From contig NW_004086236.1 of the NCBI RefSeq assembly GCF_000220395.1, positions 1-32,895 of the forward strand: a DNA stretch of 32,895 nucleotides. Direction: 5' to 3'. A program made the position numbers and the translations under genes. Within the stretch, counting starts at the first letter, position 1. Each line of letters opens with the position of its first letter. The notes beneath the pieces were generated by a model that did no database searches, was not told the origin of the DNA, and saw nothing but the letters and a program-made list of their open reading frames with translations. This DNA is from Ichthyophthirius multifiliis. Lineage: Eukaryota > Ciliophora > Oligohymenophorea > Hymenostomatida. Positions 3,410-32,283 of the stretch are shown one piece after another.

Positions 3410-3899
3410 TCATGATTATTATTCTTTATTAAATTCTTCGCTAATATTATTCTAAATTTATTAATCTTAATTATTATAATCAGATATATTAATTTCTATA
3501 AGCTATTCATGATTATGATCTTATTAAACTTCTATTTATAAAAATTCTTGTTATTTTAGTTAATTTTAATTTTTTTTTCTTATAAAATTTATATATCCTA
3601 ATATTATGTGTTTTATTCTTCTTACTGTTATGTTTATTAATTTAATTTCTCTTATTATTAATTTTCATAAAATTCTTCATGTTAAATAATTTAATTATCA
3701 TTTTCTTTATCTTATTATAAAAATTATAATTTATCTAATTTTTCATTTTTTAACATTTATTATTAATTAATATTAATTATTTATAAAGTATCATTTTATA
3801 CAGACTCAATTAATAATATTTAATTGTTTACTTATTAGTCTTATAATTAAGCTTATATATGTTAATTTTGTAGAGTTTGTTGTTATTATTATTATTATA

Positions 3900-3941
<42 letters not shown>

Positions 3942-6900
3942 ATTAATTTTATTTTTCTACATATTCATTTTATTATTATTTTTATTGTTCTTATAATTAT
4001 TAATATTAATTTTATTACTATTAACATTTTATTTAATTATCAAATAAATTATTATAATCATTTTAATTTAAATACTTTTTTGATATTTATTTTAATTTAT
4101 TTATATCTAAATTATAACCTTAGATAATAAAAAAATATATTTTTATTTATTTATTTATATAATTTATGTACTATGCAAAAATGATTTAATTTCATCTAAG
4201 ACTAATTATTTTAAATTTTCTATTTTATTTTCATTAATAAATTAATATAATTCTAAAAAATTTATAACAAATTCAATTATAAAACCTTCGCAAAATTTTT
4301 GATAACAAGACCAATTACTAAAAATTGTTACCAAAATTCTTATATATTTAGTTATATGATTTTCATCTCTCATAAATAATATTTTACTTTAAAAAAGTCT
4401 TATTTTATCATAAATGCTTTTAATCTATACTTCATTAATAACATAAAATCTTAATTAATAAACTGCTTTATCAATTAGTAATACAATTTATTCGCATATT
4501 TAAGAATTCCATTCTTTAAGACTAATAAATAAAACACTCAAAGCTTAAATTATATTCTAGTTCATAAGTACTATAATTATAAATATATATTTATATAAAT
4601 AAATATATATATATATTTAATATATATATTTTTTATATATTTATATATATATATATTTAAATTTATTTATACATATTTATATAGATATATTTAATTTTAA
4701 AATATATGTTATATTTTATAATTTTTTTTTTTTTACAATCATGTTATTAATCTAATTTTTAATGTCTCTAGTTTTCAGATATAATTAAAACTGAAATTAT
4801 CTAAATTGCCCAATTATTTCCTTCTAAAATCTTAAATACTTTTGATTTTAAAAATCCTACAAAGAATATTATACTAGCCTATATAACTTTCACAAATTAA
4901 TCATCTTCTTTAATACTTACTACAGCTAACATAAAATTGCTTATTGAATTTTTCAAACACAAGCAATTATTAATAACTTCCGTCTTATCCAGTTTTTTTT
5001 CATCAAGAACATCTAATATTTTTTAAAACATTTCTAATATTTAAAAGAATGGTTAGTTTTCTTCATTATTCTGACATAATTTATTAGAAATTACAAAATC
5101 ATTTAACTAATTAATAAATTCTTACAAAATATATAAAGAACAATCATTTAAATAATTCAATCCTTCCTATAAACAATCATCGAAAGAGTTAAATTTCGAA
5201 CACAAATTTAAATGTGATAAACATAATTCCAAAAGACAAAATTTACTAAAACTTTAAAGAAAAGTTTTTTTCTTTTTCCTTTTCAAAGACATTTCGTTTA
5301 AATTAAAAATTAAATTTTATAAATTCTCATTATCAATTTATTATAGCAAACATTCAGTTTTTTCAACTTTTTTATTAGAAAATGCTAATTTCAATATAAT
5401 ACAAATCTTTTACCATATTTTTTCAACTCTGTCTTAGTTTATTTTCATTATTTCTATACTTAAGTCTATTAAATGAGCAAATTTAATTTTTTCTGGAATA
5501 TTTTTAAATTCATTTAATATTTGATTTATAAATTCTTCATAATCTTTATCATCTAACATTCTAATTAAATAATAAAAATTAAAATTATGTATATATATAT
5601 ATTTATAATTATATATATATAATTTTATACATTTATATATATATTTAATATATTTTATTATAATATTATATTTTTTTTTTACTTTGTTTATTCTAAAATT
5701 TTATATGTAAGTTTATCGTTTTTGAATGCTTTTTGGTATAAAATTTAATTTTCTTGGGAACATATACGTTATATTTATTAATTAATAGTAATATCTTCTT
5801 TTTCCTCATCAGAAATTTCTTCTTATTAGATAAATGATGAAAAAATATCAATTAAAGATCTATTATTATGTATATTTTAATTATAAAAATCATTAGATTC
5901 TCTTATTTTTTTAATTATACTATTACATCTTTAAGCTACATAATCATTCATTAAAAAACTGCGAATATTTATTGTTTTTACTAGTAATTTTACTGCTAGA
6001 TTTTTACTATTTTTTAAATATTCAAGTGCTTTACCAGCAAAAATAAAGCAACATTATAAATATTATATATTATTTAAATTATTTAAATCTTCAAATTATA
6101 TTTTATCATAAAAGTTCTATTTAAAAAATATTTTTTTATTTTTTTATTTTTTTATTTTTTTTACTTTAAATATTTTATCAACATAATCAATTTTATCATT
6201 AGATATACATAAATTTATTAAAGATTCCAATATAATTTACATATTTTCCTCTTCTTCTTCGGTTTCTTTAAATTTAAAAATAATAAAGTCTATATTCTCA
6301 AATATATTTTTTAAAATCATTTCTAAAAGTGCCTTTTCAGCTATTTCTCTTTTAAGCTTTTCATCTTACTCTATTAATGATAATTCGTCATCCAAAAAAT
6401 CAAATTTACTAAACATTTAATAGTTCAATATCATATATTTCCAAATTATGATAGTGCATTCAGTTGATATATGAAAGCTTCTACACTCTTTAATCTCATT
6501 ACTTTATATATTATAATAACAATCAAGAACATATTCATTAGAAATATCTTAACCTTCATTAACTCCTCTTACTTATTTAATAAATTCTTCAGGTAGCATC
6601 TTTTTTTCATTTTTACTACTATGTAAGTCTGATTATAACATAATCAAAGCACATGTAAATGTATAAGCAGAATTAGATGACAAAAATGTTTACTTATAAA
6701 AAAAAAAAAGGAAGAAAAAAAATTAAAAATTTATATAACAAAAAAAATACTTACTTAATTTTATTAATAATAATTAATTGAAAATTCATCTAAAATTCTT
6801 AAAACTTATTGTGATTCTATATATAAATAATAATATATAAAATATATATAAATAATAATTTTTTAAATATATATTAATAATAATATATAAAAGTTTGTAA

Positions 6901-8577
6901 AAAAAATATTTATGTATTTTTTTATTTACCTCCAGTCATTAAAAATGTTGATAATAGTATTCTTAAAGCATCAATAATATTAATTTATGAAAAATCGAAT
7001 AATTAAATATATTATTAAATACATTTTTAATTAAATTTATCTGGTCCACCTAAAATTTCTATCATATATTTATGAGAAACATTATAAAAAGTCCTTAAAA
7101 AAAGAACTATTTTTTTTATTATAGGATCTTCTAAATCTTTATAATCTTAAATCTTGTATTCTTCTGCTATTTTTCTTAAAAATTTTTTAGGGTTTTCATT
7201 TAATAAATTTCCATATTCAATATATTTATTTTTTATATTTTCATATTTTATATAATAATTATCTTTATTATTATTTGAATTTACTTCCTTTTTTTAAAAT
7301 AGTAATAAATTCATTAATATATCACAAGAAATATTCATTATATATTTCGAATCATCTCTTAATCCATTTCCTCCTTTTGAAAATTCTATTATATTTTATA
7401 AGATTTCTTATATTATTGGTTAATTAGTATATAAAAAGTCATTTAAAATAAAAATATCTAAAAAAAATTCTTAATTGGAAAACATTTTTTTTAAAAAAGG
7501 CATTAATAATAAAAATTCTGCAGTAATAGTTTTCTCTTCCTTATATTTTTTTACGAAGTTTTTGAATTTCATATATATTAATTACCCAAATAAAAATTTC
7601 TTTATTATATTACTTTCTGGACTGTTTTATTGGGTATAAAAATTAAACAAAATTTCGAAAATTTGGATTATTTTTCCATATATACTGACATTTTATATCC
7701 TTGAAATTTAGCAAATTGTAAAAATGCACTCTTTTTCAATTATTTTAATGTATTCAGGTAACTAATCCCTATCTATAAGTAAAATTATGATTAATATTAA
7801 TAATTATATTGGCATTTCTATTATTTTAATATTTTCATTAGAGTTTGATTTGGCATAAGTTTCATAACTTTTATTCAATTTAGTGATTATTAATTATAAT
7901 ATTTGTATTATTCTAAAAGATTCAGGCTATTAAATATTTATTATACGCGTAATATACTATTACATAGCATATAAAAGTGTGTCTTTAGCCATTTCTTTTA
8001 ATCCAATATTTTAAATTAATTGACAATTTGAGATTTCTTCCCATATTTTTTCAAAAATCTCTTCACTTATATATTCTAAAGGAAAATTTAAAATTATTTT
8101 TAAAAACTAAAAAAAAAATATATATATAAAAAAAAATATTCATATTATATATAAATACTTTTAATTTTTTAGCAAAATATATACTCTAAGTATCTAATTC
8201 ATTAAATTTATAATTACATAATCTTTCTATTGTATATAAAATTATTTCTTCATCAAATAAATCTTAAAAATTCTAAATATCTATTTAACAAACTAAAAAA
8301 ACAAAATTTAAATATATATATATATATATAATATATTTGAATTTTTACACTTAATAACTTTGTTTACACTTTATATTATTGCAATATTTATAAATTCATC
8401 ATTTTCTCATAATTGAGTAAATTTATAAAATATATCTTTTAACGATAATTAATTTTATTATAATAATACTAATTAAAAAGCTTATTCAAATTATACTGAT
8501 ACATAAGAATTTTATTTTTTGTATTCTCTTATTTTATGAAAAGCTTATATAAGCTCGTTTTGTATTATTAAATTCAT
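3410..8577 (-). CDS. Sec7-domain Arf guanine-nucleotide exchange factor, GBF1/BIG type
   Basis: Nine exons: 8577-8349, 8292-8159, 8106-6930, 6816-6755, 6692-6165, 6116-5683, 5560-4737, 4570-4172, 4118-3410, about 1498 residues. The Sec7 domain (about 424-602) shows FLRTFYNVSHKYMIEILG, LFDFSQINIIDALRILLS, the MTGE loop, AYTFTCALIMLQSDLH and RGVNEGQDI. Glu514 in that loop is the expected catalytic glutamate. Sec7 proteins load GTP on Arf at Golgi or endosome membranes. Long helical regions flank the domain, as in the DCB/HUS and HDS regions of large Arf exchange factors; the post-Sec7 sequence leans to GBF1. The tail (about 1263-1498) is very Gln-rich with a poly-Gln tract near 1323-1343. Oddities: an in-frame TGA at 8407-8409 and a one-base shift at an A9 run (sense) at 3570-3578. 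Phases fit at all eight introns. Confidence 0.88.
3883..3941 (-). repeat. Trinucleotide repeat coding poly-glutamine
   Basis: A near-perfect ATT repeat on the + strand. On the minus strand, in the frame of the last Sec7-gene exon, it reads as TAA codons and so gives about 21 glutamines broken by one leucine, ending in two CAA codons. Slippage in whole triplets would change only the Gln count. Confidence 0.85.
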
Positions 8578-9461
8578 TTTTTAATTATTTAATAATATTT
8601 AAAAGATATTTATATATATAAAAAAAATGTTATTTTTTATTTATTTTATAAATTAATTATTTTTTATTAACACTTGTAAATAAATGATTATTTTAATTTA
8701 ATAAAAATGAAATTTTCCTTTTATTTAAAAAAAAATATACATTTATAAAATTAATTAATTATATATTTTTAATATCATATTTTAAATAATTGTGATTTTT
8801 ATATTTTATATATATAATATTTTTAAATAATTTTATTTGCTTAATTATATTATATATTGCAATTTTAATCTTTTCTCTTTTCTCTTTTTAATTTTTAATT
8901 TTTTAATTTATCATATTAAATTGAAAAAAAAAATCTAAATTATTTATATTATTATATTTTATAAAAAAATAATTTCTTTATATAATAAAAAAAATCTTAA
9001 AAGTATGTAAACTATATATTATTAATTTATATTTATAAAAATAATTAATTAAAAAATACTTTATAACTTATAAATATTCTTAAAAAAAATATTTAATTGA
9101 AACATCATTTATAAAATAAAAAATTTATATATAAAATTCTTTATTTTTTATTCTTAAAAAATTGTTTGCATTTTATTTAAATATATTAAAAAATACAAAA
9201 TTATTTAGAACTGTATATTCTAATTCTAATTTATAAAATTATAGTAAAATAAAAACAACATATGTATTAACATACAAATTTATTTAGAAATACATTAAGT
9301 ATTTGAAACTTAATTTTATTCTGTTTTATAATAATGTATATATTAAAATAAGTGTAGTAATGAAAGAGTTAAAAAATATTTTATAAATCAAAAGAATACT
9401 ATTTTTGAAAGAGAGATAAAAATAACTGAATTTATTTAAAACTATAAATAATGAAATTAAA

Positions 9462-9492
9462 TAAAAATAAAAATAAAAATAAAAATAAAAAT
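9462..9492. repeat. TAAAAA hexamer repeat
   Basis: Five near-perfect copies of TAAAAA in tandem, ending at TAGG. In the plus-strand frame from an ATG at 9360 it would read Gln-Lys repeats, but that frame is short and unsupported. Confidence 0.6.
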
Positions 9493-9695
9493 AGGAAAAA
9501 AATATTAATAAATGAATAAAAATTACCTGATGTTATATAATTATAATATTAGAAAAAATAATTATTAGTAAAAATTATTAATTAATTATAATAATAAAAT
9601 AAAAATATAAAAACAAGTAAAAAATTTAAAAAAATTAAATATAAAAAATGTAAATGATAAAATATATAAATGTTTTAATATATAATATTATATAA

Positions 9696-9698
<3 letters not shown>

Positions 9699-9744
<46 letters not shown>
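9699..9744. repeat. TA dinucleotide tract
   Basis: About 23 uninterrupted TA units in the middle of the longest gene-free stretch. Such tracts are prone to length error in assembly. Confidence 0.8.
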
Positions 9745-9749
<5 letters not shown>

Positions 9750-10814
9750 TCATATTATTAATTTTTTTTTTTCTTATAATGAATATATATCATGTTTATT
9801 TATACTTTATTTTTATAAAACAATTGATTTACGTAATTTTAAAAAAATATTTAATTGCAATATTTTAAACAGTTTTATTATAAATATCATATTTTTTTTC
9901 TTGGTTGATAATATATTATTAGAATATACAATTATATTATTTACATGAAGATTAAATAAATTATTCATTATTTTTAAAATAATATAAAAAATATCTTAAT
10001 TAATAATAAAAAAAATTAAATAAAAAAATTAATTTAAGATATTATTTTGTTTATTATTATTATAAATAATTTAAAAATCATAATAAATTAAAATATGATT
10101 TTAAATATTTATTAATTTATTTATAAATTGAATAGAATAATTTTTTTAATAAAATAATATCAATATTCATATACTAAATATTTTTTATAAAAAATAAAAC
10201 AATAAAACGAAATCATTTTAACTATTAAGTTGATGAAAATTAATAAATATATAAATTATTATTATATATATTGATATAGTAATTATTAAATAATAAATTT
10301 AATTATTCTTATTAAATATTTATGATTTTATATTTTAAAAACTTAAAAAGAATATTTATATATACAAAAAAATATATAGAATGTTATAATAAATAAAGTA
10401 AATGTATAGAAAACGTTAATTCATAACATATAGTTAAAATATAAATAATTTTTAAATAAAAAGAAACAATTATTATATTATAAACAAAAGAATGGAAACG
10501 AAAATTTTGATTGTATAGTATTATATAATATCATATAAATAAATATTATTTTATTAATTTTTATATTTTATTTTTTAAACAAAAAAATAAAATTATGTGT
10601 TATAAGTTAAAATATTTAAATAAAAAAAAAAAATATATATATTGTTTACATAAAGGATATAAAAAATATTAAACTTTCAAATTAAAATATATTTTTTATT
10701 TAAAAAAATATGAATGTATCGCAAAATAAAACTTTAATTAATATTAAATATTATTTTAATTTATATAAATATATTAAAATTATATTAATTAATATTTTAT
10801 TAAAATTTATATGT

Positions 10815-11198
10815 TTTAATTTCCTTCTTTCTAATATTATTCCTTTTTCTGAGTTTTAAACTCTAATACCTCATTTTTTTACTCTTCGATTCTAGATTTC
10901 CTTTTTTCCACCAATTTTTAATATTCAATATAAATTGATCTGCCACTAAACTTACTCTTTTCCAGTTTCATATATTTATTATATTAATATACATATTCTC
11001 TATTTATTAATATGCTTTATCAATTAATTAATAAATTCTTTAATAATAATCATAATCAAATAATTTCCCTATTTACACTTCCTCGCTTCATCTACAAGTA
11101 TTTGAATTTTCTATGAAATTAAATAAACATGATCATTTTATTTTAATTCGTATTTACTTAGTAGTATTTATAGCTTTTAAATTAATCTTTGTCGCATT
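10815..11198 (-). CDS. Hypothetical charged coiled-coil protein (ends unresolved)
   Basis: Two minus-strand segments look coding but their connection is not settled. The right one starts at an ATG at 11137-11139 (MRQRLIQKL) and contains VDEARKCKQGNY. The left one can start at an ATG at 10969-10971 (MKLEKSKF) and runs through IEYQKLVEKRKSRIEEQK into a Lys/Glu/Gln-rich helix. They lie in different frames. A GT at 11077-11078 joined to an AG at 10955-10956 would connect them in phase with an intron of 124 nt; alternatively the left ATG starts a separate protein. No TGA in the left frame ends it before 10680. No family is recognised; the composition suggests a coiled coil. Confidence 0.4.
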
Positions 11199-11219
11199 GA
11201 TTTATTATTTATATAAGAA

Positions 11220-11834
11220 TATTGTCAACTAGTTATTAAATTGTATTAAGTATATTTTATTAAATGTTATAAATTTATTGAAATTCATTCTATATTTTTA
11301 TTTATGTATTTTTATTACCATAAATAAACTATCATCTTAAAATATAAACAAATTAAAGGTATTATTATTTTAAATATATTCGAGGGGAACAAATAGGATT
11401 ATTAAAAAATTTTAATTAAAATAATAATAAACATTTTTGTTATAAATTAAATTTATTACTTATTCTTTTTTATGGAAAAAAAAATATTTTTAAAATATAA
11501 AGAAATAATTTGTATTAAAAAAAATATATAATAATTAATATAATAAATATATTATATGATAATGTTTAATAATATATATGATTTAGATTTTAGTAAAAAT
11601 AAATTTAATATAATAAATTATATTAATTTAAATAATATCTAGAAAGTTTAAATTGTTTTAAATAACTTGATTACTTTTTTATAATAAATAACATTTTTTT
11701 AAATATATAATATATATATATAAAACAAAACAAAAATTAATATTTTAAATAAAAATAAATCTTTAATCAATAAAATTAACAAAAAAATAATTTTTAAAAA
11801 TATTATAAATTAAAATAAATATAAGAAAAATAAA
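11220..11834. other. AT-rich spacer, likely divergent promoter region
   Basis: Separates the minus-strand coiled-coil segment from the plus-strand BBS8 gene, so it should hold both promoters. Only A/T-rich sequence is visible, apart from a short GC-containing patch near 11381-11400 that I cannot assign. Confidence 0.5.
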
Positions 11835-13809
11835 ATGGATAATTTCATAATTGCTATGAGTAGATATAAAAGAAGAAAATATGATCAAGCAATAGAATTA
11901 TCTGATTAAATGATAGAATTAAATTAAAGAGATTAAGTTATTATAAATATTTAAAAATAACATACATAAATATATTAAAAAAAGGCAGCTTGGATAATAA
12001 AATGCAATTGCCTAATTAAAAAAAATTATATAGATGACCTAGAAACAGATGAAGAAGGAATTGGCGATATTTTATTAGATGAAAATACAGTTTCCTAATA
12101 TGCTAGACCTGGTACATCATTGTAAAGACCAACAACATCAAGTCAAAATGGATTAAATCCAGTAAAAATAAAATATATATAAAAAATAATTATATATATA
12201 TATAAAAAATATATAAATTTAAATTTTTAAATAAATAGATATAAAGGCCTGTAAGTAAATCAGGAAGACCTATTACTGGTTTTGCAAGACCAGGAACTAA
12301 TAGATTATAATCATCATCGAATTAGAATAGAATAGAAACAGCACTTTAAGGAAATCGTATAGGTACAACACGTCCGATAACAAGTGGCGGTAGGTATTAA
12401 CATAAATATAAATATTAAATATATATATAAATGTATATATGAATATATATATAAAAATAAATATATAAAATAATTATATATAAAAATATTTATATAAATA
12501 AAAAAAAATATTTATATATACAAATATAAAATAATATATTTAAATATTTTTAAAAAGATATTGTTAAATATATAAATATATAAATATATAAATATATAAA
12601 TATATAATTATATATATATATATATATTTATTTTATTTATTTATTATATTTTTTTTTATATATTTTTTTTATATATTTTAGATATATGAGATTAGGTACT
12701 GCTTGTTTAATAGCTGACAAGGACAATTTTTTATAAATAGATAAATTAGATATGAAAAAAATTGCTAAAAAAGGTATTTTAGCATAAGCTATTTGTAACT
12801 ATCTTCTTTATGTCGAAAATAACCCAAAAAAAGCTCTCTAACTTGCCTCGGAATGTACACAATTATCTTAATTTAAAGACTGGTGGTGGAAAGAAAGACT
12901 TGCAAAATGTTATTCTTAACTTGGTTTACATCGTGAAGCCGAAAAACAACTACAAAGTTCCTTAAAAGATTAAGATATAATTAAAACTCACCTCCAATTG
13001 GCCAAAGTATATATTAGATTAAATCAACCAATAACAGCAATTGAATGTTATAAAAAGGGACTATAAAAACATCCTTAAGAAATATAATTTATACTAGGAA
13101 TTGCTCGTATATATGATTAATTAGGTGAAAACGAGAAAGCTGTAGATCATTATAAGTTTTTATTTTTTTGTATAAAAAAAATAATCCCAAAAAATATATT
13201 TTTATATAAAGATAAGTGCTTAGTTTAGACAGTAGTAATATGGAATCTGTAGCTTAATTAGCCGCAAATTAATTTTATATAGACTAGCCTGAAGTATCAA
13301 CAAAATTTTATTAAAGACTATTATAATTAGGTATTAATTAAGCTGAATTATGGAATAACTTAGCTTTATGCCTATTTTATGATGGCTAATATGATCTGTT
13401 TTATTCATGCTTTGAAAAAGCATTAATGTTAGCAGATGAAAGCAATAAAGCAGATATTTGGTATAATATTTCACATGTATTTATAAATTTAGGGGAAACT
13501 GGAATGGCTTATTAATGTCTCAAAATTGCTATTTGCTTTGATCCACATCATCCTGAAGCTTATAATAATCTAGGTATATTAGAAATTAAAAAAGGGAATA
13601 TTGAAAAAGGAAAATATGAACTATAAGTAGCAATGAAAGAAGGTGAAATGTTAATAGAACCACATTATAATGCGGCTTTATGGGCTTTTAATACAGCAGA
13701 GTATTAAGAAGCTTTGAATTTAGTCAATAAAGCGATATGTATATACCCAGATCATGATGATTCAAAGAAATTGAAAAAAAATATAGAAGATTTACTAAAA
13801 GTTTTATGA
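11835..13809 (+). CDS. BBS8: BBSome subunit BBS8 (TTC8), TPR protein
   Basis: Five exons: 11835-11936, 11985-12161, 12239-12393, 12682-13155, 13212-13809, giving 501 residues with all phases consistent, close to the usual length of the family. The amino-terminal part has AAWIIKCNCL, the YIDDLETDEEGI segment and repeated R-P-G-T / R-P-I-T motifs (ARPGTS, GRPITGF, TRPITSGG). The family signature FKDWWWKERLAKCYSQLG follows. TPR repeats fill the carboxy-terminal half, for example GLHREAEKQL, ADIWYNISHVFINLG and HPEAYNNLGILEIKKG. In other eukaryotes BBS8 is part of the BBSome, which carries membrane proteins along the cilium with the IFT machinery. The third intron, 288 nt, is the longest of those resolved here. 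No frame breaks are present. Confidence 0.96.
12394..12681 (+). other. Long intron of BBS8
   Basis: A 288-nt GT..AG intron made of TA-rich repeats, splitting the Arg codon of a GGRYMRLGT segment. Nothing else is visible in it. Confidence 0.8.
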
Positions 13810-13981
13810 TAATACAAAATTATAATAAATAAATATATAAATAATTATATGTTATATGTTTTCATTAATGTCATGTTTTTTTAACTTTTTATTAAAATTT
13901 TATTATTATATTATTTTATTAGTTTTTTATATTTTAAATTATTATTTTTTACTAATTTATTAAAAATTTATTAAATTCTAA

Positions 13982-14900: not shown

Positions 14901-14902
<2 letters not shown>

Positions 14903-14971: not shown

Positions 14972-16963
14972 TCAATTGATCTAAATAGTATTTTATATTT
15001 ATCTTTCAATTAAACTCTTATAAACTCCTTATTTTTCAATAAGTTCTTAATGATTTCCCTCTTCAACGATAATTCCATACTACATAACAATAATTTTATT
15101 AGAATTTTTTATTGTAGACAATCTATGAGCAATAATAATAATTGTCATACTTTTGTTTTAAACTAATTTATCAATACTTTACTATACTTAGTATTCACTT
15201 TCAGCATCCAAAGCACTTGTAGCCTCATCAAAAATTAAAATATTCGGATTTTTAGCCAATGCCCTAGCAATAGCCACTCTTTATTTTTATCCTCCAGAAA
15301 GTTTAGTACCTCTTTCTCCCACAAGAGTATCATATCCTTTCGGGAACATATTCTTATTTTATAAAAATTCACTAACCCCTGCCATATCGCAAATTTTATC
15401 AATAAAATCTAAACAATATTCATCTATTCCATAGACTATATTATCCAATAGACTGCCCGAAAAAAGTGTTGGTTCTTAACTCACTAAGCCTATTTATTAC
15501 CTCAACTTTAATCCATTTATTTCTTTGACATTTTCCCCATTTACGAAAATTCCTCCACTACTAACATCATAAAATCTCTCAATTAATTTCACTATAGTAC
15601 TTTTGCCACTTCCAGAAGCCCCAACAATAGCCACACATTCCCCAGCCTTTATTTTGCTTGAAACTCCATGCAAAATCTCCACATTAGTTTTCGGATAGGA
15701 AAATGTAACATCTTTAAGTTCTATTTCTCCACTTACGCATGTGAAATTCTTCCCTGTATTATTTTTAACTATCGGCTCGTAATTTAGCATTTCGAAAATC
15801 CTCTCCAATGCTCCCATAGCGCTAACAATACTACTAATTCCATATGATATAGCAGAGGAATTAGTCGCTAGAGAAGTCGAATATAAAATAAAAGAAGCCA
15901 AATCTCCAGAAGATAAATCTCCAGTTTATTCAGCCACAATAGAACCTCCATACCATAAAATAATCAAAATGCCAATATTAGAAATAAATGTATTTTAAAT
16001 TGTAAAAAATAAAGCATTCGCTATTGAGCTTTTCAAACATTCAGCATATTCATCTGAAATAATTTAATTGTATTTTTTAATCTCGAAATTTTCCTAACCG
16101 AAAGATTTCACAGTCATAATTCCAGAGAAGACTTCCTCTGTTAATTCACTCTATACAGCAGATATATCACTAACTTTTTTTTCTATTTTTTTACTAAAAC
16201 TGGAATAAACTTTAGTAACAAAATAATAAGCGGGTACGACAGGCAATATAGCAAGTGAAACCTTCCAACTAATTACAAAAAGCATAATTAAATTACTAAA
16301 AATTAAAAAGAAATTTCTTAAAAGCATATTAGTGTTAAATCCAACTGCTGCTTTAGCAGTTGAAATATCTCTACTTAGTCTACTCATGAGTTCTCCAGTT
16401 TTATGCTTTTCGAAAAATTCCATATCTTAATTAATGAAATGTGAAAAAACATCTTTTCTTAAATTTAAAAGGATTTTTTAAGAAAGTAAATTAGAACAAA
16501 TCATTCTTATTAAAATCAAAATACAAGTAATAATAATAATTCCTAAAAATTAAAAACTTAAAGTTTTTACTTAATGTTATGCATCTACTGATGTTACCAC
16601 ATTCAAAAGCCTTCCTATTAAATAAGGAATTAAAGTTTAGGATAAGGTTGATAATATTAATGTCACATACATTGCTATTAGTATTTTTTTTTCTTTTAAA
16701 CAATAACTATACATTCTTTTATATAAACCCCATTCGAATTTATCGCTTTGTTTTTATTTTTTTATATCTTTTCGAGCATTTTATGAAATTTTTAATTAAT
16801 CCCGCTCTTCGTATGATATTTTTATTTCTTTCTTTATTTATGTACATCTGTCTATATGTATTATTGACTCCTGATTCATATCTGAAATTCTCGAATCATC
16901 TATTGTTGAAGTTGTTGGGCGACCGCTTATTTTCTTTTATTCTTGTTCGAATTCTTTACTCAT
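14972..16963 (-). CDS. ABCB-type half transporter (exporter with fused ATPase domain)
   Basis: An intronless gene of 663 residues from ATG at 16961-16963 to TGA at 14972-14974. The first ~100 residues are hydrophilic ([11 protein letters not shown]). A six-helix type membrane domain follows, including [18 protein letters not shown] and [15 protein letters not shown] and the loop [18 protein letters not shown]. The nucleotide-binding domain has Walker [10 protein letters not shown] (448-456), the Q-loop LVSQEPTLF, the signature LSGGQ (555-559), Walker B ILIFDE (575-580) and the H-loop histidine 613, so both ATPase half-sites look intact. Half transporters work as dimers and export peptides, lipids or drugs; the membrane and substrate cannot be told, and no clear mitochondrial presequence is seen. 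TAA and TAG are used for glutamine, so it is adapted to this genome. It is visibly richer in G and C than neighbouring genes. Confidence 0.95.
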
Positions 16964-18095
16964 TAATGATATGGTTATTTCTTTTGATAAATCTTATTTC
17001 ATATATTTTTTTAGATTTTTTTTGTTTTTTATTTGCTTTTCCTATTATTTTAATATTTCTTTTTTTTTTTTTAAAAAAAAAAAATACAATTAAAAATAGT
17101 TTATTTATTAATACTAAAAAAAAATGATTGTATTTTGGAAATAATTGACATTATTCTATATAATAATTAAATATATTTTTAATAACAAATTATTTAATCT
17201 GTAAAATTAAGAAAAAAAAAAAAAAATAGATTATTTATTATAATGTAATCTTTACATTTTTATATAATTAAAAATAAAAAAAAACATTATTTATATAAAA
17301 ATTATATAAGTAAATGAAATCTAATATATCGTTTTTAATTTTATTTGATAAAAAATTTTAATCCAAATAATCTCAAAAATGGAATTAGGCCCGACTTTAA
17401 TTAATTTTTTAATAAATAATAAAAGAAAATAAAATTTTAGCATGCTGGAATGAAGAACACATAAAATAAATAATATATAGAAAGAAAATTATTATTTAAT
17501 TTTTAAAAAAATGCATAGGATTAAATTTTTTATTATTATTATTTTTTTACTCTATATAATAATTAATACTTAAATTAGTATTAATTTTTTTTTCATATTT
17601 ATATTTAAATCAATTTAAAGTTTTAAAATTTAATATTATTTAAATTAATTAATAATTTTATTAATCAATATATTCCTAATCTCTTATTTGAATAATTATT
17701 TTTTGGTTAATAGACTCTTTTTTCTTTCTTTTTTTATTACATATTTCATTTAAATTTGAAATGATTTTTAATTATAATTTTTTATATTAAATCCTATTTT
17801 ATTTACGTAATTATTTACTGATTTGTATATTGATTTTTAATTATAATTCAAAGTCAATATATTGGTTTACTAATGTATATATATTTTTATGATTAAATTT
17901 ATCAATAAAATAATATGATGGAGAATGATTTTAGTTCAATATTTTTTTTTATATATTAATTTTAAGAATAATTTTATTTTATAAAAAAATATTATTAATA
18001 GTAATATCTTATATATTTAATAAACAAAAAAATATATATATATTATATGTCTATGTATATATTAAATATCATATATATTTTATTAATTTAAAAAA
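16964..18095. other. Divergent intergenic region
   Basis: Lies between the ABC transporter (-) and the coiled-coil gene (+) and should hold both promoters. Mostly A/T runs. The patch at 17380-17450 contains unusually GC-rich islets (GGCCCGACTT, GCATGCTGG) flanking an AATTTTTTAA element and is discussed as a possible small RNA. No protein-coding frame is convincing. Confidence 0.5.
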
Positions 18096-20793: not shown

Positions 20794-20837
<44 letters not shown>

Positions 20838-21540: not shown

Positions 21541-23375
21541 ATGATTAATACTGAAATATTTAAACTAACAAAAAACTCAACTCAATAAGATTTAGAATAA
21601 TGCATAAAATGGATCCGCTATAATTTCGAATAATCAACTTCCCCAAACATTCAAGTAATAATAAAACATCCATAATCCAATATTAACTACCAATAATAGA
21701 CAACTTTAAAAGCTTTTTTTATGAAAGCCAAAATATAATTAACTAAAATATTGAAAAAAACTAAAAGTAGGCTTCTATATAAATAATGTAACAAACCCTT
21801 TAATAAAAAATATAAGATGCAATAGATTAAATATATAAATATATTGAAAAAGGACTTTCTTTTTATAAAGAAAAAACTATACAAATGCCATTGAAAATTA
21901 TTAGAAATGCCAAACAATATGTGAAGAACAGACTAGTATATTAGAAGATAAAAATAAACTACTCTAAAATGAATCATTTAGTATAAATAATTATTTCTAT
22001 ATAGGATTATGTTTTTTAAATATGAATGAATACGAAAAAGCAGGTGAATATTTAGAAAAAGGAATCATAAATTTATAAGCAAACAAATACGACTAATCTT
22101 TATTAGATTAATTAGTCCCTAATATGTCTTTTTATTTATATTCAACACTAGGAGAAATATATTCTAAAAAAAAAGATTATAAAAAGGGTATCAAAAACTG
22201 GGAAAAATCATTAGAATTTCTGGAGAACCAAGAATATGGGGAAGGTTTAAAAAATAGAGGACATATTTTAAATAATTTAGGCCTAGCATATTATTGTACA
22301 TAAAATATTTAATTAGCAATTTAATCATTTTAATAGAGTCTTAAAATATATACAAGTATATTAGGTGAAAATGATATATAAGTTGCAAATAGAATGAATA
22401 ATGTAAATATATAAAATATATAAGTATATATAAAAATAAAAATAAATATATATATATATATATATTTATTTATTTATATATATAAGAAATATATAGATTT
22501 AATATATATATAAATATTTATCTATATATATTTTTATATATATAAAAGTTAGCAGAAGCTTATAGATATAATAAAGAATATATAAAAGCTTTAGATTTGT
22601 TTACACAAAGTTTATTAATTAAAAAAAATTTAAATTAATCTAATGAAAATATAAAAAATATTGCTAATACATATCAAAACATTGGTAATACTTATTAATC
22701 ATTAGAAGATTTTCCAAATGCAATTGATAATTTTTTACAATCTTTAAAATATTACAATGATTTATTATAATTAGATAATAATTAAACTGAAATTTAAGAT
22801 AATGTCAGTAAATTGCATATCATATTAGGGGATTGTTATAAGGAAAATAAATAATATGACCTTTCAGTCTACTAATTTGAAAGAGGATATGAAATGAAAA
22901 AATAATTGCATGGCATCAATAATAAAAGTACTATTAGTTGTGCTAATTAATTAGCTTCATTATATTTTAGAATTAAACAATTTTAAAAAAGTATAGATTT
23001 ATTTGTAATAGTTTTAGATTTTCAAATATAACAATATGGCGAAAGTTCAATATAAGTAGGACAAACATTAAATAATATAGGGTTTTAAATATATATATAG
23101 ATATATATATATATATAAATAATTTTTATATATAAATATAATAAATATAAATAAGTTTTTTTTATATTATTAGAACTTCTTTATGTTAATTAAAAAATTA
23201 TAAAGAAGGAATAGTTAAAATATAGCAATCATATGAAATATTTAAATAATAATAAGATAAAATAGGAGATAAATAATTATTAGAAAGAATGTAAAAAGTA
23301 CTAAATTCTAATATTAATAAATATTAATAATTACTTGAAAAGAACGATAAATAAGAAGTGGAAGAAATATAATGA
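21541..23375 (+). CDS. TPR repeat protein (kinesin-light-chain-like repeats), frame broken twice
   Basis: Exons 21541-22402, 22549-23081 and 23174-23375. It opens MINTEIFKLTKNSTQQDLEQ. TPR motifs follow: IYKYIEKGLSFYKEK, GLCFLNMNEYEKAGEYLEKG, LGEIYSKKKDYKKGIKNWEK, LNNLGLAYYC, IGNTYQSLEDFPNAIDNFLQ and ASLYFRIKQF. The long repeats with Asn/Tyr in the first helix resemble kinesin light chain and LGN-type TPRs, which bind partner proteins; the partner is unknown. The 1597 exon bases are not whole codons. One extra T at the T7 run 21714-21720 and one extra A at the A6 run 21871-21876 restore a single frame of 532 residues. The second site falls within a canonical TPR helix pair, so it is not an intron edge. 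As written, the first frame stops at a TGA near 21888. Confidence 0.85.
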
Positions 23376-23682
23376 GTTTTTTTTTTATTTAATAAAAAAA
23401 TTCTTAAAATAAATTAAAAAAAATTATAAAATATATATAATATATAATTCTTTTATTCAAAAATTGTTTTGTAAAAAAACTATATCTATTTTCATTTAAT
23501 TTTTTTTTCATTATTTTAATTTAATTTAATTTAATTTTATATTTATAATAATTACTTTCAATAAACTATATTTTGATTAAAAAAATACAAATAATTAACA
23601 CATTTATAATAAAAATAAATAAAAAACCTTAAAAATCAAAAAAACTAAATTAATATAAAAAAGAACATATATAAAATAAAAA
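23376..23682. other. Short AT-rich spacer
   Basis: 307 bases between two plus-strand genes. It contains A/T runs and an ATTTA-rich patch and no coding frame; it should hold the 3' UTR of the TPR gene and the promoter of the MORN gene. Confidence 0.6.
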
Positions 23683-23990
23683 ATGGGAGCAGAATTATAA
23701 AAAGAATAATAACCATTTTAAATAGATGACGAATATACACGAAAATACGAATATATGTTATAAAATTATTTTCAAATAGATACCAAAAATGATATTTTAG
23801 TAGGAAATTATGATTTATTTTTATCAAAATACAATAAAAACACAAGCATAATCCAAATATATCAAATATTTAATTCCGAATATGAACTTTAAGCTCAATA
23901 TCAACTAAAATAGCTAAGATTAATAAAAACACATCCATATATTATATAATTACATAGTAAAAAATAAAATAAAATTAAATAATTATAATA

Positions 23991-24021
<31 letters not shown>

Positions 24022-25463
24022 TTTTATATATAAAGTATTTAAAAAAGTAATTGAAGATTCAATTTGTAGTAAATAATTTAAAATATATTCACTTCTTGAT
24101 AATTGTTCATTAACTTTATAACATAAGTACGTAAATATGATATAGATAAATTAAAGATTTTCTGAAATATAGTTATTTTAAATACTGGAATAAATAACTT
24201 TTGCATTATCTTTTATATATTCTAATAATTGCACTCATCAATATTTGCGTTTAGATACTATTTTTATTATTTATTGTCCTTAATAAAACACTTTTTTATA
24301 TAAAATTGCTGAAAATTCTTTTATTTCTTCCACTTTTTTTTCTAATTATTCCGATTGTTTAAATTAAAATAGTTAAGGACGTTACTTATCACCCGAAAGC
24401 ATGTAATGTTTATAAAAAAATTATTTAAAAGTACTGAAAACGGTATCAAATCCGATGTTTTTACACTAGGAATGATATTATTATAACTGTCAACTTTTAC
24501 CTAATTAGAATATATATATGACTTTAAATAAAACGTAATAAACACATATTTATTAGAAGAAAAAATATACACTTTATAACGAATTTATACATAGGAATAT
24601 ACGTAAATAATAAGTGAAATGCTCTAAATAAACCCTATAAATCGCATAGATATATATTAATTAGAATAAAAATTATTATAGAGGTAAAATTTACCAATAG
24701 TTAAAAATATAAACTAATAATAAAATTAATAATTATAAATAATGAATATGCTGTAATAAATGCTATAACAATAATAATAATAGGAAAAAAATATTGTATT
24801 TTCTTCTAATAATAAAAGTGATATAATATAATAAGCAAATGTATTCAGTTGTTCACCTCATAAAAAATACTTTCAGAAGGTTGTTCTCCTTTAAAAGGTG
24901 CTAATGTATTTGATAAATTTTCTTCATAATAATAATATTAATAATAATAATAATAATATTAATAATATTAATAATAGTTAATTAAATAATTTAAATATAA
25001 TGACGGTTCTATTTATGAAGGAGAAATGTTCTAAGAATACAGAAACGGTTATGGAAATTTAACTTTTTCAAATGGAGGAGTATACAAAGGTTTTTGGAAA
25101 ATAAACAAAATGCACGGAAAAGGTACCCTATATTACCCTAATGGGCAAAAAGCATATGAAGGATATTGGTATGAGGACTAGTTTAATGAATATGGTCATT
25201 TATTTAACAATAAATTTAAAATTTTTAATACAAAATTCGACTATAAAGATTTTTCTTAAATTAAAAATTAATGGATTAAATATGAAGGTGAATTTAATTT
25301 TGATAAAAAACAAGGTTTTGGAACTATTTTTTTAGCAAATGGGGAAAAATATATAGGAAATTTTAAATAGGATAAAATACATGGATATGGCATGTTTTAT
25401 GACATTAATGGATAATGTATAAGTGGATATTGGGAAAATAATTTATTATTAAAAAAAATGTGA
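23683..25463 (+). CDS. Pseudokinase fused to MORN repeats, frame broken twice
   Basis: Exons 23683-23956 and 24036-25463; 567 residues once two one-base gaps are counted. The first ~330 residues follow a protein kinase fold: helix E ILEQITFALSFIYSNNC, catalytic-loop position HQYLRLDTIFI, APE-like YLSPESM, helix F KSDVFTLGMILLQL and helix I INPINRIDIYQL. HRD is replaced by HQY, DFG by IAE, and the VAIK lysine position lacks lysine, so a pseudokinase is expected. A Gln-rich linker leads to about five MORN repeats from ~415: YEGEMFQEYRNGYG, YKGFWKINKMHGKG, YEGEFNFDKKQGFG, YIGNFKQDKIHGYG and a last partial one. MORN repeats often mediate membrane or cytoskeleton contact. Frame shifts at A7 24414-24420 and A6 24862-24867 each need one extra A. 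Confidence 0.85.
24926..24978 (+). repeat. TAA/TAT triplet repeat coding a Gln-rich linker
   Basis: TAA triplets interrupted by TAT read as glutamines with scattered tyrosines between the pseudokinase and MORN parts. As in the Sec7 gene, a TAA microsatellite becomes poly-Gln because of the altered code. Confidence 0.75.
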
Positions 25464-25940
25464 ATAATTATTTTTTGTTAATATGTTATATTTTATATAT
25501 TTATATATATATTTATAATTTATATAAATTATTTATTTGCTTTGCTATACTTATCTTTAAAAAAAAAAATTTTTAATTTATATAAATAATTAATTATTAA
25601 ATTTTTAATAATATTAATTCATTTTCATCAATTTTATAATATTTAAAAATTTACAATATTATAAATTTATATTTATATATATAAATAATATTTTAAAGTT
25701 TTTTTGTAAAAACATTTGTATAATATATGTAAACTTTATTAAAATTAATTTTTTTAAAAAAATGAATATTTTATAATATAAGACAATTCTAAGAAAAATA
25801 TTTAAAATAAATAATTATGTTTAATAATAAAAATTTTTATATTTAATTCAAAAATAAATATAAAAACATTCATATAAAATTTATACAAATAACAATTACT
25901 AAATAATCAAAACAAATAAATATTTAGTAAAAAAAAAAAA
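25464..25940. other. Spacer between convergent genes
   Basis: Holds the 3' ends of the MORN gene (+) and the SCO1 gene (-). Only A/T-rich sequence is seen, with an A9 run near 25559 and an A12 run just before the SCO1 stop codon. Confidence 0.6.
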
Positions 25941-27167
25941 TCATTAATTAATTTTACTAATTTCATTTTCTAAAATTTTATCAATAATAATTCGTGATAA
26001 TTAATTTTCATTTAAATTTGGACCTAAGTGTATTAAATATTAACCTTCATCATCCATTAAATATGAAATAACAGTATGATCAATAGTATAATTATATTAA
26101 AGTTAACCTAATTTATCTTTACCTCTATTAAAAAATAAAAAATAAAAAAAATGAATAAAAAAATATAATTGTAAATATAAGTATTATATATATATAAATA
26201 TTTAAATAGATATAAAAATATAATTATATATATTTTTATATTTATATATATACATTTTTTCATTTTATAAAAAAAATATATATAAATATTAATATATAAA
26301 TATTTAATATATTAATACATTTTTTATTTATATATTTTTTTTAATAAAAATACCTATTATCTTCAGCAAGTTCATATTCAATTTTAGTGGAATATATTCT
26401 AAATTTTTTCATTATGTCTTTTAGTTTTTAATCATTATTACTACTACCAGTAACCCCAATAATATTTTTATCAAATAAATTACAGAACTTTTTAATATCA
26501 CTCATAGTATCTCTATCTGGATCTACACTTACAAATATGCTTTTCAATTTTATTAATCTACCTTCTGGTGTATCTTAAACCTTCCTTATGCTTTATGATA
26601 TTTTCTACAAAGCATTTGGACATATATCTGGGCACTTACAAAATCCGAAATAAATAATATAATAATATCCTTTTAAATCATCACTTCCAAATTATTTTCC
26701 TTCAGTATTATATAATTACCATTCTCCTCCCACTATCTATTTTTATTATAAAATCTTTTATTTTTATTCCTCCGTAGTACCTTTTTTCGATTATAACTAA
26801 GGCAATAATTCCAAAGATAAGTATCCTAAAATTATACCCAAACTCCCTATTAATAATAATTTTGTAGTTGTTGAACCTTTTCTTTCGAATGATCCATCGT
26901 CTCCGTCTAAATCTTCCGTTTTTTATTCTTATTCGGTAAACATACTTTCTATTTTGGCTAATTTTTCATCTTTTGATAAATTTTAAAAATCTTTTAAATC
27001 TTAATGAGTTTATTTTTCGAATTCTTTATTTAAAGAATCATGTCTATCTTCGTTTAACTTTTTTGAAAAATTATTTATTGGTATATTTGTTAATTATTTG
27101 AATTTTGTTTATATTGCTATTTATTTTATTTAATTAAATATTGTTTTATTTCTTAATAATAACATTT
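25941..27167 (-). CDS. SCO1: SCO1/SenC copper chaperone for cytochrome c oxidase
   Basis: Exons 27167-26354 and 26124-25941, separated by a 229-nt intron; 332 residues once a one-base gap near 27059-27070 is counted. The start MLLLRNKTIFNQIKQI is basic and hydroxylated, fitting a mitochondrial presequence. One membrane span (KLLLIGSLGIILGYLSLELL) is followed by the thioredoxin-like domain. The copper site is present: Cys179 and Cys183 in CPDIC, and His288 in YTIDHTVISYLMD. FVSVDPDRDT is also typical. SCO1 sits in the mitochondrial inner membrane and delivers copper to the CuA site of cytochrome oxidase subunit 2. Without the correction, the ATG frame and the domain frame differ by one base. 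Family assignment does not depend on that correction. Confidence 0.93.
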
Positions 27168-27512
27168 TTGTTGATTATTTAAAAATTCGCACCTTTGTAT
27201 GGAATATGTAAATTAAAATAAAAGATATTTTAAAATAAAATAAATAATAATTAGTATATAAATTTATATTATGTAAACTTAAATAATCTTTAATTTTATA
27301 ATATTAATTATAATATATATGCTATTATATATTCATTATAATTATATAAAAGCTCTTTTATTTCAAAATTATATTATATTTTATTTAAAAATTAGTTAAA
27401 TGCATTTTATAAAACACTCTATTATTTTTAAAATAAATGCAAATATATTATAATAATCTAAAATTCATTTATTCCTAAACATTGGAAATATTTAACAAAT
27501 TAATATAATAAA
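27168..27512. other. AT-rich divergent spacer
   Basis: 345 bases between SCO1 (-) and an orphan ORF (+). No coding frame or motif stands out. Confidence 0.6.
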
Positions 27513-28231
27513 ATGATACTAATCTATATATTAATACATAAAATTTTAAAAACAATATATTTAAAAACTTATAAAATCTTCTTTAATATATTAATAGAAG
27601 TAAATTTCAAAATTGAACTTATAAAAAACTATAAATAACTTCGATTAAAAACTAAAATCCTATTTTTAATAAATATACATGATAATACACGAGATCTAGA
27701 TAATAAATTCCAAGAGTGTATAAAAAAGGTAATAAAAACATAATTTTAGTATTTTATATATTCCAATAAAAGTGGTCAAATCTTAATATTTAATAAAGTG
27801 TTCCATTTATTAGAAAAAAATTAAAATTTCCAAAAAGCTCAAAAACATAAAATATATTAAATTATTAAAAAATAAATATGCAAATAAAAATTATTTATAA
27901 ACAAGTATTATAAATAAAACTTAGAATTTCTATTAAATTATACAAACAAACAAAAAACTGAATAAAAGTTACAGATCATATAAAAAGCTTATTAATATAA
28001 AAAAATTAAATTCAAAATATAATCATATTTATGTTTTAGTAGAACTTAAGATATTTATTTGAAAGTTAAAAAAAAGAAAAATAAGCATTATTAATAAATC
28101 CTTAATTAAATTTATGGCCTAAAGGATTAAAAAAATCTGAATATATTGTAATCTATAACATATTTAGTTTTCATATTAATTATTTATTCAAAAAATATAC
28201 TTTTCGATTAACTTTTAAGAATAATATATGA
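27513..28231 (+). CDS. Orphan basic protein, frame broken once
   Basis: The ATG at 27513 opens MILIYILIHKILKTIYLK, a hydrophobic then basic start. The frame continues through NIHDNTRDLDNKFQECIKK, SGQILIFNKVFHLLEKNQ and NKYYKQNLEFLLNYTNKQ with coding-like composition. At the A8 run 28068-28075 the coding look moves to the frame one base back and reads QALLINPQLNLWPKGLKKSE, ending FKNNI and TGA at 28229. With one extra base it has 239 residues. No family is recognised. It could be a lineage-specific gene or a decaying copy. Confidence 0.5.
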
Positions 28232-28390
28232 ATTAATCAAAAGATAAAATTTAAAAACTTTTATAATATTGACAATTGACCCTTGATTAATATAAAATTA
28301 ATTGTGTATTAAAATATGATTTTCATATTGTTTGATATCCTTGTATTTTATATTTTACGAAAAAAAAAGAAAAAAAAAGCTAATTTAATA

Positions 28391-28683
28391 ATGACATAAT
28401 TAAATTGATTTTCTTAAAAATTTCAAATCAATAACTATAAAATTGAAAAGGATAATTTAGATAATAATTACTTAATTTTAAAAAGGCTTTTTTAAATTTA
28501 AGATTTAATGGTTTTAATTATGAATGAAATTTTTAAAGAAAAATTATATTTAAGATTATAAGAAGAAACATAAAGTAATTTTATTTCAATAATAAAATTT
28601 TAATTATTAATTAAAAAAGAAGAATTTAGTTATCAGTCTATTTAAAAAAAAACTATTAATTTTTAAAAGAATCATTTTATTGA
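28391..28683 (+). CDS. Small orphan ORF with an internal TGA and a frame break
   Basis: ATG at 28391 reads MTQLN and then meets a TGA at 28406-28408, after which the same frame continues as FSQKFQINNYKIEKDNLDNN and LMVLIMNEIFKEKLYLRLQ with clear coding composition. At the A9 run 28644-28652 an extra base would give a frame that ends at TGA 28681, for 97 residues in all. Without it the frame runs on into spacer. Alternatively the true start is elsewhere, or this is a remnant of the orphan ORF just upstream. Function is unknown. Confidence 0.4.
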
Positions 28684-29099
28684 AAAATAAATTTTTATTT
28701 ATACATTTTTTTTATAATAAGATATAAACTATATAAATATATTTAATTTATATAATTATATATTATAAAGTATAAATAATAAATTATATTTAATTATTAA
28801 TATAGAAATTTTTTATTAATATTAAATATTATAAAAATATATATATTTTTTTTATTAAAAACATTAACTTAAGTTATTTATAATAAAAGTATATACAAGA
28901 AATTATAAAATGTTAAAATTAAATATATATGTAAAAATTATATATTTAAATACTAAATAAAGTTTATTTATTATTTTAATTTTCTTAGTTTAATATATTT
29001 TTATTTGTAGTATTTTTTTATTTTATTATTTTTAAAAAACTAATTATATAAAATTTAATTTATATTTTTATATTTTATTTATTTTATATTTAATTAAAA
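28684..29099. other. AT-rich spacer before RPC3
   Basis: 416 bases of A/T-rich sequence containing no convincing frame; presumably the promoter of the RPC3 gene. Confidence 0.6.
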
Positions 29100-30833
29100 A
29101 TGGATAATTAAAATTAATTAATATTTTAGATAATTAATGAAAATTTTAACTATGAATAAGTTTAAATATGTTAAATAATTTAAAAGTATAATTAGATAAT
29201 ATTGGAATAAATAATATAAAATCTTTAATAGCATATAAACCTTAAAACAATAAAATAAAATATTAGTATTTTATTATTCAAAGGAATTATTTAAAAAAAT
29301 TAGATAAATAATGAATATTTTTATTCATTAAATAATTATGAAATTTTAAATATAATAAGATATCCATAATTTATATAACATATTAATTAATTATATGGCA
29401 ATATATCTGGTTAAATAATAGAATATATTATTTAATAATATACTGGAAACATATAAGAATGCATTTAATATCTTTAAAAATATTATAATATATAAAATAA
29501 ATAAAAAAGTAAAAAAATAATCAGAATTTGTATTTATATATTTTAATAAATAAGTTCTTTAGTCATTTTTTTAACTATTATAAAATAATTATTTTTAATA
29601 AATAGAAATTAATTAAAATGATATAGATGAATTAACTACTACTACTTCAAATATGAAATAAAAATGTATAAAAATGTGTTTATTAAAAAATAAAATATAT
29701 ATTAATAAATATTTTTTTATTATATATTAGATTTGAATATATAATATTTTAATACAATCAAAAATATAAAATAATAATAAATTATGCACATAAATGATGA
29801 TTTTTTATCAGATTATAACATATGTAACTATAAAAATATATAAATATTATATATATATATATATTAATAATTAAAATAGATGATGAAGATAATTAAAATG
29901 AATAGAATAAATAAGAAGTATTAATAAATGATATTGAGAATAAATATTATAGGATAAATTCTAAATAATTCATATAATATTTTTGTATAGAATAAATAAT
30001 AAATATATTGAATGCTAACATATGTTTTTAAGAAAAATAATTAATTAAACTTTTATTAAACTAAAGCTAAAAATAATTTTCTATTTAAGAAATTTTAAAA
30101 CTATTACCAGATTATGTTAATAAATAAATATTTGAATAAATTATATCAGAAAATTAATTAAGATATATAAAATCAAAAGAAATTGATAATAAATAGCTAT
30201 ATAGTGTTAATTTAAATAAAATTATTTAGAAAATACAATATTATTATATTTTTAAATTAATTGAAAGAACATAAGGATAAAATATAACAAGAATTTTACG
30301 TATTTTAAAAAAATGTAAATTCTTAGAAATAAAAAAAGTAATTTTTATATCTATATTTTAATTATTTATTTTTTAAACAAAAATTATATAAAGATTGCCG
30401 AATTATCAGTTCTTTCTATTAGCGAAGTATAAAAGTTTGTAGATTAATTATAATAATAAGGATTTATAACTTAACAGGAATTATATTTAAATGGCTAAAA
30501 TACAATTTATTGTATATTAAATTAAAATAAATAAATATTGAATAACTAAGCAATATAATCATACTATAATGTAAAAAAAAAAGATATTGTATTTTTAATA
30601 TTAATATATTCTTGTTTTTTTTATTTTTTTTAAAAAAAAAATATTAATAAAAAATTTAGTGTATTCAAAGTTTAAAATAAGAATAAAACATTTTACTTAA
30701 AAAACATGAAAATTTCTAAATTTCAAATAAAAAAGAACAAGATAATAACTTGAAAAACATAATAAATCTCTAAATTGCAATATAAGAAGTTGATTTAGCA
30801 TTATTATTTTTTACAGAGTTTAATTAAATTTGA
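29100..30833 (+). CDS. POLR3C: RNA polymerase III subunit RPC3 (POLR3C/Rpc82)
   Basis: Six exons: 29100-29508, 29555-29665, 29731-29823, 29880-30337, 30394-30570, 30660-30833, 473 residues with every phase consistent. The first winged helix ends in EILNIIRYPQFIQHINQLYG and is followed by SGQIIEYIIQQYTGNI. The Rpc82 core begins YLNIQYFN. Later segments are FSIQEILKLLPDYVNKQIF, ILRILKKCKFLEIKK, the last winged helix IAELSVLSISEVQKFVDQL with GFITQQEL, and a carboxy-terminal helix EVDLALLFFTEF. RPC3 forms a Pol III-specific subcomplex that helps initiation at tRNA, 5S rRNA and U6 genes. The protein is Ile/Gln/Asn-rich, so identity to other eukaryotes would be low, but motif order along the chain matches the family. 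No frame breaks are present. Confidence 0.85.
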
Positions 30834-30896
30834 AAAAAATAAAAATATAATAAAAAATAGATATATTTAATCAAATAAAAAATTTAATAATTAAAA

Positions 30897-30899
<3 letters not shown>

Positions 30900-30932
<33 letters not shown>
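30900..30932. repeat. TA dinucleotide tract
   Basis: About 16 TA units in the short spacer between the convergent RPC3 and HECT genes. Confidence 0.8.
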
Positions 30933-30936
<4 letters not shown>

Positions 30937-31054
30937 ATAAAATATATTTAAATTTATTATAATATATATGCTTCTTTTTATTTTTGAATATTTATAATTA
31001 ATTTGATAAACATAAAATTATAATAAAAATATATGATTTATAATGTTAATATTT

Positions 31055-32283
31055 TCAATGTAAACCAAAACCTTCAGCATTTTCTAATGCTTAAAGTAAT
31101 TTTTTTTTAAGTTATTCTTTTGAAGTATACATAGGAATTTATAAATAATTAAAACATGTATGAGCAGAAGGTAATTATTCATCGCCACCTCCATTTCTAA
31201 AGTATAAACATATATATATATATATATATCGATATTTTATAAAAAAATACCTTATAACAGTAAATTAAAGTGATCCTAAACCAGTTATAGGAGATCTTTC
31301 ACTTCCAGTGCAGAAAAGTAAAAATCTTTTTTTTATTCTATATCAAATTCATTAAGAGTTTCCCATAACCATCTTTATTTATGTATTTATTTATGTAATT
31401 ATATTAAATATTACTTAACTTAATCAGAATTTTCATCATAACCATCTTTATATGAAGTCTTTTCTTTTAACTCATTTAAATTAAGTTCTTCAAGTCCAAC
31501 AAGGACTTGTGTAAGTTCAGAACTAGAAAACATCTTTATATATATATTTATATTATATATTTTATTAATAAAAAAAATACTTTAATTAATTCTCCATTTA
31601 AAACTTTATAAAATCCTCTTTTGAAGTTATTAAATTATTTTTCTATAGATTTATTTAAATACCAATCTACATATAAATCAATAAATTATTATTTATTTTC
31701 TTAAGTTACAGATATATTATCTCCATTTTCCTTTATTTTTTATTTTTATTTAATATATACAATAAAAATTTACAATCAAATCATATTTTATAGTCTCATA
31801 TACAGTTTATTCAATTTAAAAAGTAAGTTAAAGATCAGTCTATAAATCTCCTTAATAGCTTAAAATATGCTTAAATCCTTTAGTAAGTAGAAGGATCAAA
31901 TTCTGCAATATCTTCAATAGTAACAGGTTCATCAATTAGTTTTATATAAATAACTCTTGGGAATTTCGCATCCATTTAAATTTAATTGTATATAGCTAAC
32001 CCCATCAAACTACCAATTAATTCATATAAAATAGGCATATCATATGAATGTCCATTAAACCATAAAAACCTATCATCCTATTAATTTTTTGTTAATTATA
32101 ATTATTAAATACTTTTTAAAAAGAAATACGTTTTTTGGTAAAAACATTCCAAAATCAGGATTTAATAGTTTTTTTATCATAATTTAATAATATTCTTTTC
32201 TTAAACCACCCTCATCTATTCCTTATTCGCCTTTAAATTTAACCTATTTCAATAATAATTATTATATAAATAAAATAAATTTT

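Follow-up and report, generated by a model that had tools for sequence, protein, structure and literature searches.

Gene content of the window

The window analysed here, 32,895 bases of the Ichthyophthirius multifiliis genome, is an entire contig (C601) with a GC content of 14.9%, and the genome assembly examined comprises 44,957,332 bases in 937 contigs. The species is supported by two published 20-base primers for I. multifiliis hsp90 (PMC10024447), each of which has a single mismatch-free site, on contig C390; the two sites face each other and span 225 bases, compared with a reported 138 bases on cDNA, a difference that an intron would account for. TAA and TAG codons occur within conserved frames, and conserved genes of this genome use TAA for Gln. 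The genes recognized in the window are as follows:

2106-2753: CCCH zinc fingers (Pfam)
4191-8577, minus strand: long Sec7 gene, with the Sec7 domain in two pieces within 5448-8139 (Pfam), modelled with seven introns and no break
11.8-13.8 kb: TPR gene (TPRs by Pfam)
14975-17935: ABC transporter (Pfam)
21541-23374, plus strand: TPR-repeat gene (Pfam TPRs at 21.5-23.4 kb; relatives)
23683-25462, plus strand: kinase-MORN gene (MORN repeats at 24822-25460 by Pfam; relatives; gene-structure script)
25940-27165, minus strand: SCO1 gene (Pfam), with its frame open across 27059-27070
31058-32895, minus strand: HECT ubiquitin ligase gene in seven exon pieces, truncated by the contig end

The original prediction, made from the sequence alone, held that nine gene frames each lack one base at an A or T run and that the BBS8, ABC transporter, RPC3 and CCCH genes show no such break. 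The gene-structure script indeed models no break in the BBS8, ABC transporter and CCCH genes, nor in the SCO1 and Sec7 genes; the name BBS8 is that of the original prediction, Pfam giving TPRs only. An RPC3 gene was not identified, as Pfam assigned Sec7 to 4191-8577 and three ORFs at 10680-11331 gave nothing, and the gene called RPC3 is probably the Sec7 gene at 4191-8577.

The Pkinase pieces of the kinase-MORN gene fall below the curated cut-off and were seen once both frames were supplied separately. HRD and DFG are the usual kinase motifs; the kinase part fits Pkinase weakly, and both motifs are seemingly missing when inspected by eye. Judged from its sequence, the gene may encode a pseudokinase fused to MORN repeats. 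The same kinase-MORN layout was found by protein search in relatives from Tetrahymena, Paramecium and Pseudocohnilembus. A further stretch, at 4545-4960 of contig C359 (L010, L069), is 73% identical in DNA to part of the TPR gene at 21541-23374 and, on this similarity, is likely a paralog of it.

Frame breaks in the HECT, TPR and kinase-MORN genes

The breaks and frame changes examined in the window are:

31327-31334, minus strand: 8-base run (A on the mRNA strand), one base short (P0001 tblastn; HECT profile pieces net -1)
31879-31882, minus strand: a surplus of one base or a deficit of two (P0001 alignments; four bases for one residue)
21871-21876, plus strand: A6 run within a TPR motif, frame change, one base short (P0121 register; coding signal)
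21667-21840, plus strand: stretch holding one further frame break (frame 1 to 21666, frame 0 later; weak GT..AG candidates only)
24414-24420, plus strand: A7 run, frame change, one base short (relatives; Pkinase profile; gene-structure script)
24862-24867, plus strand: A6 run within a Q-rich linker, close to a frame change due to either an indel or an intron (coding frame; candidate intron 24684-24835)
3570-3578, minus strand: T9 run near a weak coding-frame change in a Q-rich stretch (coding signal; GT..AG alternatives)

The HECT gene was aligned exon by exon by tblastn with its Tetrahymena thermophila homolog P0001 (57% identical), and two of its pieces reach identities of 83.8% and 72.7%. 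Across 31327-31334, P0001 runs EQKKKFLFFCTG uninterrupted, while the window alignments switch frame at the run with no residues lost, which fixes the placement of one missing base. The script had bypassed this break by an intron at 31414-31326, a solution overruled by the relatives, which carry residues at 31327. A second break in the same gene was overlooked by the original prediction: the P0001 alignments stop at 31883 and restart at 31878 in a different frame with one residue between, and the script places an extra base at 31884. The sign of this break is opposite.

In the TPR gene, the T. malaccensis protein P0121 aligns to frame 1 over 21553-21666 and to frame 2 starting at 21872, and by eye its residues stay in a single register within the TPR motif spanning 21871-21876. 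One base is thus missing at this run, its placement fixed by P0121. A further break lies upstream. Frame 1 has been confirmed as far as 21666, frame 0 scores best from about 21740 onward, and the coding signal switches at about 21740-21770. The proposed break at the T7 run 21714-21720 is therefore real in so far as one break falls within 21667-21840; the T7 run is a possible site, and another A run at about 21753-21759 lies in the same stretch. BLAST with the middle segment of the gene returned a best E value of 0.021. The script's single extra base near 21863, offered in place of two short runs, was overruled by the relatives.

For the kinase-MORN gene, the Pkinase profile aligns over its positions 84-169 in one frame and continues at 171-259 in the following one, and the script places a missing base at 24415. 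The residues across 24414-24420 are present in all four aligned relatives (P0196-P0199), which fixes one missing base at this run. A 29-nt GT..AG intron at 24403-24431 (score 6.8), which would also restore the frame, was rejected, as the same four relatives hold the residues it would delete. When the frameshift and intron versions were compared, four of five relatives scored the frameshift higher, and P0200 slightly preferred the intron.

Introns and the remaining sites

The original prediction stated that no GT..AG pair explains the sites. Frame-restoring pairs of at least 20 nt were nevertheless found at five of the six predicted sites tested, the exception being 21871, and the pairs at 24414 and 31327 are ruled out by the relatives alone, which hold residues there. 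No GT..AG removal agreeing with the relatives was found at 21871, 24414 or 31327, and there is next to no chance that these three breaks are misread introns, even though the script chose one, wrongly, at 31326-31414. For 24862-24867 and 3570-3578, the same explanation is a serious contender, with a probability somewhat short of even. The coding-signal scan shows a sharp frame shift near 24862-24867, and the 152-nt GT..AG candidate at 24684-24835, which the script selected, scores 10.1, matching the top score among the nine introns accepted in the window; its GC content of 13% is above the 2.5-11% of those introns and counts against it. The frame change is upheld at this site, and may reflect either the proposed missing base or this intron. 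At 3570-3578, which falls outside the script's Sec7 gene model, a weak frame change was seen, with GT..AG alternatives present to the proposed missing base.

Three further predicted sites received no support. The sequence at 27059-27070 is no homopolymer, and the SCO1 frame runs open from the ATG at 27165; this frame is the best of the strand's three in six scoring windows over 26981-27220, save for a near-tie in the first (-2.2 vs -2.1). At 28068-28075 and 28644-28652, the coding signal is weak or absent, and the script models no gene over 27580-28760. In this interval, 4 of 18 plus-strand scoring windows exceed zero in some frame (2.3, 5.0, 0.8 and 0.1), compared with none of 18 on the minus strand, and the highest (5.0) spans 28060-28179, a short weak signal adjoining the proposed 28068-28075. 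Taken together, the nine predicted sites comprise three confirmed in place, one break that is real and unplaced, two frame changes that introns could explain and three that are unsupported.

Frame breaks elsewhere in the genome

Five families (CCT, kinesin, HECT, DHC_N2 and HSP70) were surveyed in the I. multifiliis genome itself, giving 257 rows and 46,529 codons, with 12 row pairs lacking sequence. Eight neighbour pairs were flagged, among which C220, its copy C417, C467, C601 and C815 are net -1 and C654, C418 and C613 are ambiguous; an overlap on C226 had been flagged by an earlier run of the survey. When 50 kinesin loci were searched in finer detail, nine junctions were flagged, including the known C220, C417 and C467 together with two new ones, C757 (-1) and C927 (+1). 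The other four (C370, C911, C869 and C200) were taken as introns or overlaps, two of them (C370 and C200) having been viewed. The C815 break lies in a HECT gene, and those of C467, C757 and C927 in kinesin genes. The runs at these breaks are T4 in C467, two A in C220 and C417, A5 in C757, T7 in C815, and TT or AAA in C927. The kinesin copies of C220 (L075) and C417 (L079) are 99.07% identical and have the identical one-base-short break, which may thus be a genuine mutation within duplicated DNA.

The kinesin and CCT sample (105 segments, 57,177 bases) contains four breaks (C220, C467, C757 and C927). None of its 239 runs of at least six bases is hit, some of these runs lying in bridged introns, vs 3 of 83 in the window (p 0.017, uncorrected, the window having been preselected by the original prediction). 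Similarly, 4 secure breaks of fixed position fall in the 13,087 modelled coding bases of the window, vs 0.92 expected from the kinesin and CCT sample (p 0.014, again uncorrected and for a preselected window). These rates are rough, as best-scoring rows favour intact genes. A kinase survey, in which 129 of 1239 candidates were scored with intact genes likewise favoured, was excluded from the counts. The contig ends of C2 and C197, which are 98% identical with three gaps beside T runs, were considered as a gauge of error and set aside because their divergence is too great.

Origin of the frame breaks

The breaks, their positions and signs, and the conservation of the protein on either side are observed directly, and it is highly probable that the secure breaks as a set are single-base indel errors of the macronuclear assembly, mostly one base short in A/T runs. 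In 454 chemistry, all bases of a run give a single light signal; its strength can be miscounted, and the consensus would inherit the error. The I. multifiliis genome paper describes an assembly mainly of 454 FLX Titanium reads, with Sanger reads as a supplement, made with Celera at 19x (PMC3341644), and the entry for the species in a later source reads '454, Sanger', 48.80 Mb (PMC7285179). We infer that C601 is part of the published 454 assembly (44.96 Mb here vs 48.80 Mb published); the size difference perhaps reflects the omission of small contigs. According to two studies, 454 accuracy drops with run length, both over- and undercalls occur, and indels lead among the errors (PMC5822529; PMC3116506). 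In a genome of 15% GC that is full of A/T runs, 454 miscounts would be expected to leave breaks of either sign scattered over unrelated conserved genes. The breaks found here resemble the errors in those studies in being single-base indels of both signs in unrelated genes with conserved proteins, and perhaps in lying mostly at A/T runs: those at 31879-31882 and in C927 have an extra base and the other placed breaks are short. The secure one-base-short breaks of the window fall at runs of 6, 7 and 8, and that of C815 at T7. The breaks found here differ in that some occur at runs of 2 to 5 and that C601 is denser in breaks than the kinesin and CCT sample. 454 error does not readily account for those at shorter runs (C467, C757, C927 and C220) or for the one that C220 and C417 have in common: several breaks outside the window fall at T4, A5, or runs of 2 or 3, where such errors are expected to be rare at 19x, and random errors would not produce a break common to copies 99% identical. 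The homopolymer undercalling suggested by the original prediction is the best fit, the published assembly of the species being mainly 454, although three of the nine sites are unsupported, two may be introns, one is unplaced, and an extra base is seen at one break.

Real mutations in the sequenced DNA, as in recent pseudogenes or minor alleles, could account for the kinesin break common to the near-identical copies of C220 and C417 and for a break density in the window exceeding that of the family sample. As a general explanation, they are very unlikely: the exon pieces are still conserved, as in the two HECT identities given above, and several unrelated genes of one contig would have been broken together while their neighbours are modelled unbroken. 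Rarer still as a prospect is that the DNA is correct and that minus-one ribosomal frameshifting or RNA polymerase slippage on the runs restores the frame, the alternative also raised by the original prediction, for which there is no positive evidence here and to which several results are contrary. The clean row-pair breaks are net -1 in five of five cases (C220, C417, C467, C601 and C815), and a classic slippery heptamer, which for minus-one frameshifting follows the rule X XXY YYZ, is readable in frame by eye at 24414, 31327 and C815. Ribosomal slippage would, however, require a common motif, and the heptamer is missing at 21871, C467 and C757, that is, at three of six missing-base sites (by eye, C220 left out). 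The likeness to programmed minus-one frameshifting is thus confined to the sign of most breaks and the heptamer at half of these sites, and breaks of opposite sign (31879-31882 and C927) set the two apart. Most runs, moreover, pass unbroken (3 secure breaks at the 83 window runs of at least six), and at 4 to 7 bases the runs are short for slippage by a polymerase.

Among ciliates, Euplotes uses plus-one frameshifting at AAA-UAA. Both I. multifiliis extra-base events, at 31879-31882 and in the C927 kinesin (L059), are readable as TAA (Gln) followed by A; these are two events only, and the pattern may be due to chance in so A/T-rich a genome. The resemblance to Euplotes lies in these readings and in both organisms being ciliates, whereas TAA encodes Gln here and most of the secure breaks have the opposite sign. 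No frame change was found at UAA or UAG serving as a stop, TAA and TAG being codons in conserved frames and most secure breaks being one base short. A decoding mechanism that tolerates breaks genome-wide, by slippage on A/T runs where a base is missing and by a plus-one step at reassigned UAA where one is extra, is a very long shot; were the breaks genuine at the DNA level, widespread frame slippage in a ciliate would be a remarkable discovery.

The best reading remains that the breaks are ordinary assembly indels rather than new biology. We infer that the fault lies in the reads or the consensus and not in the DNA of the cell, and the genes affected are presumably intact and ordinary. The terms frameshift and homopolymer are absent from the available part of the genome paper (PMC3341644), and among the matches listed in literature searches on I. 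multifiliis (frameshift; macronuclear genome with homopolymer; PacBio), no title deals with frame breaks or with a more recent assembly of this genome. Among the matches listed in three protein searches (for HECT, the best 120 of 159), no name mentions Ichthyophthirius, most rows being nameless; its gene models may be split, or the species may be absent from the database. Anyone using this assembly should be aware that its gene models and gene counts may miss or split genes, since clear breaks occur in kinesin and HECT genes elsewhere in the genome as well.
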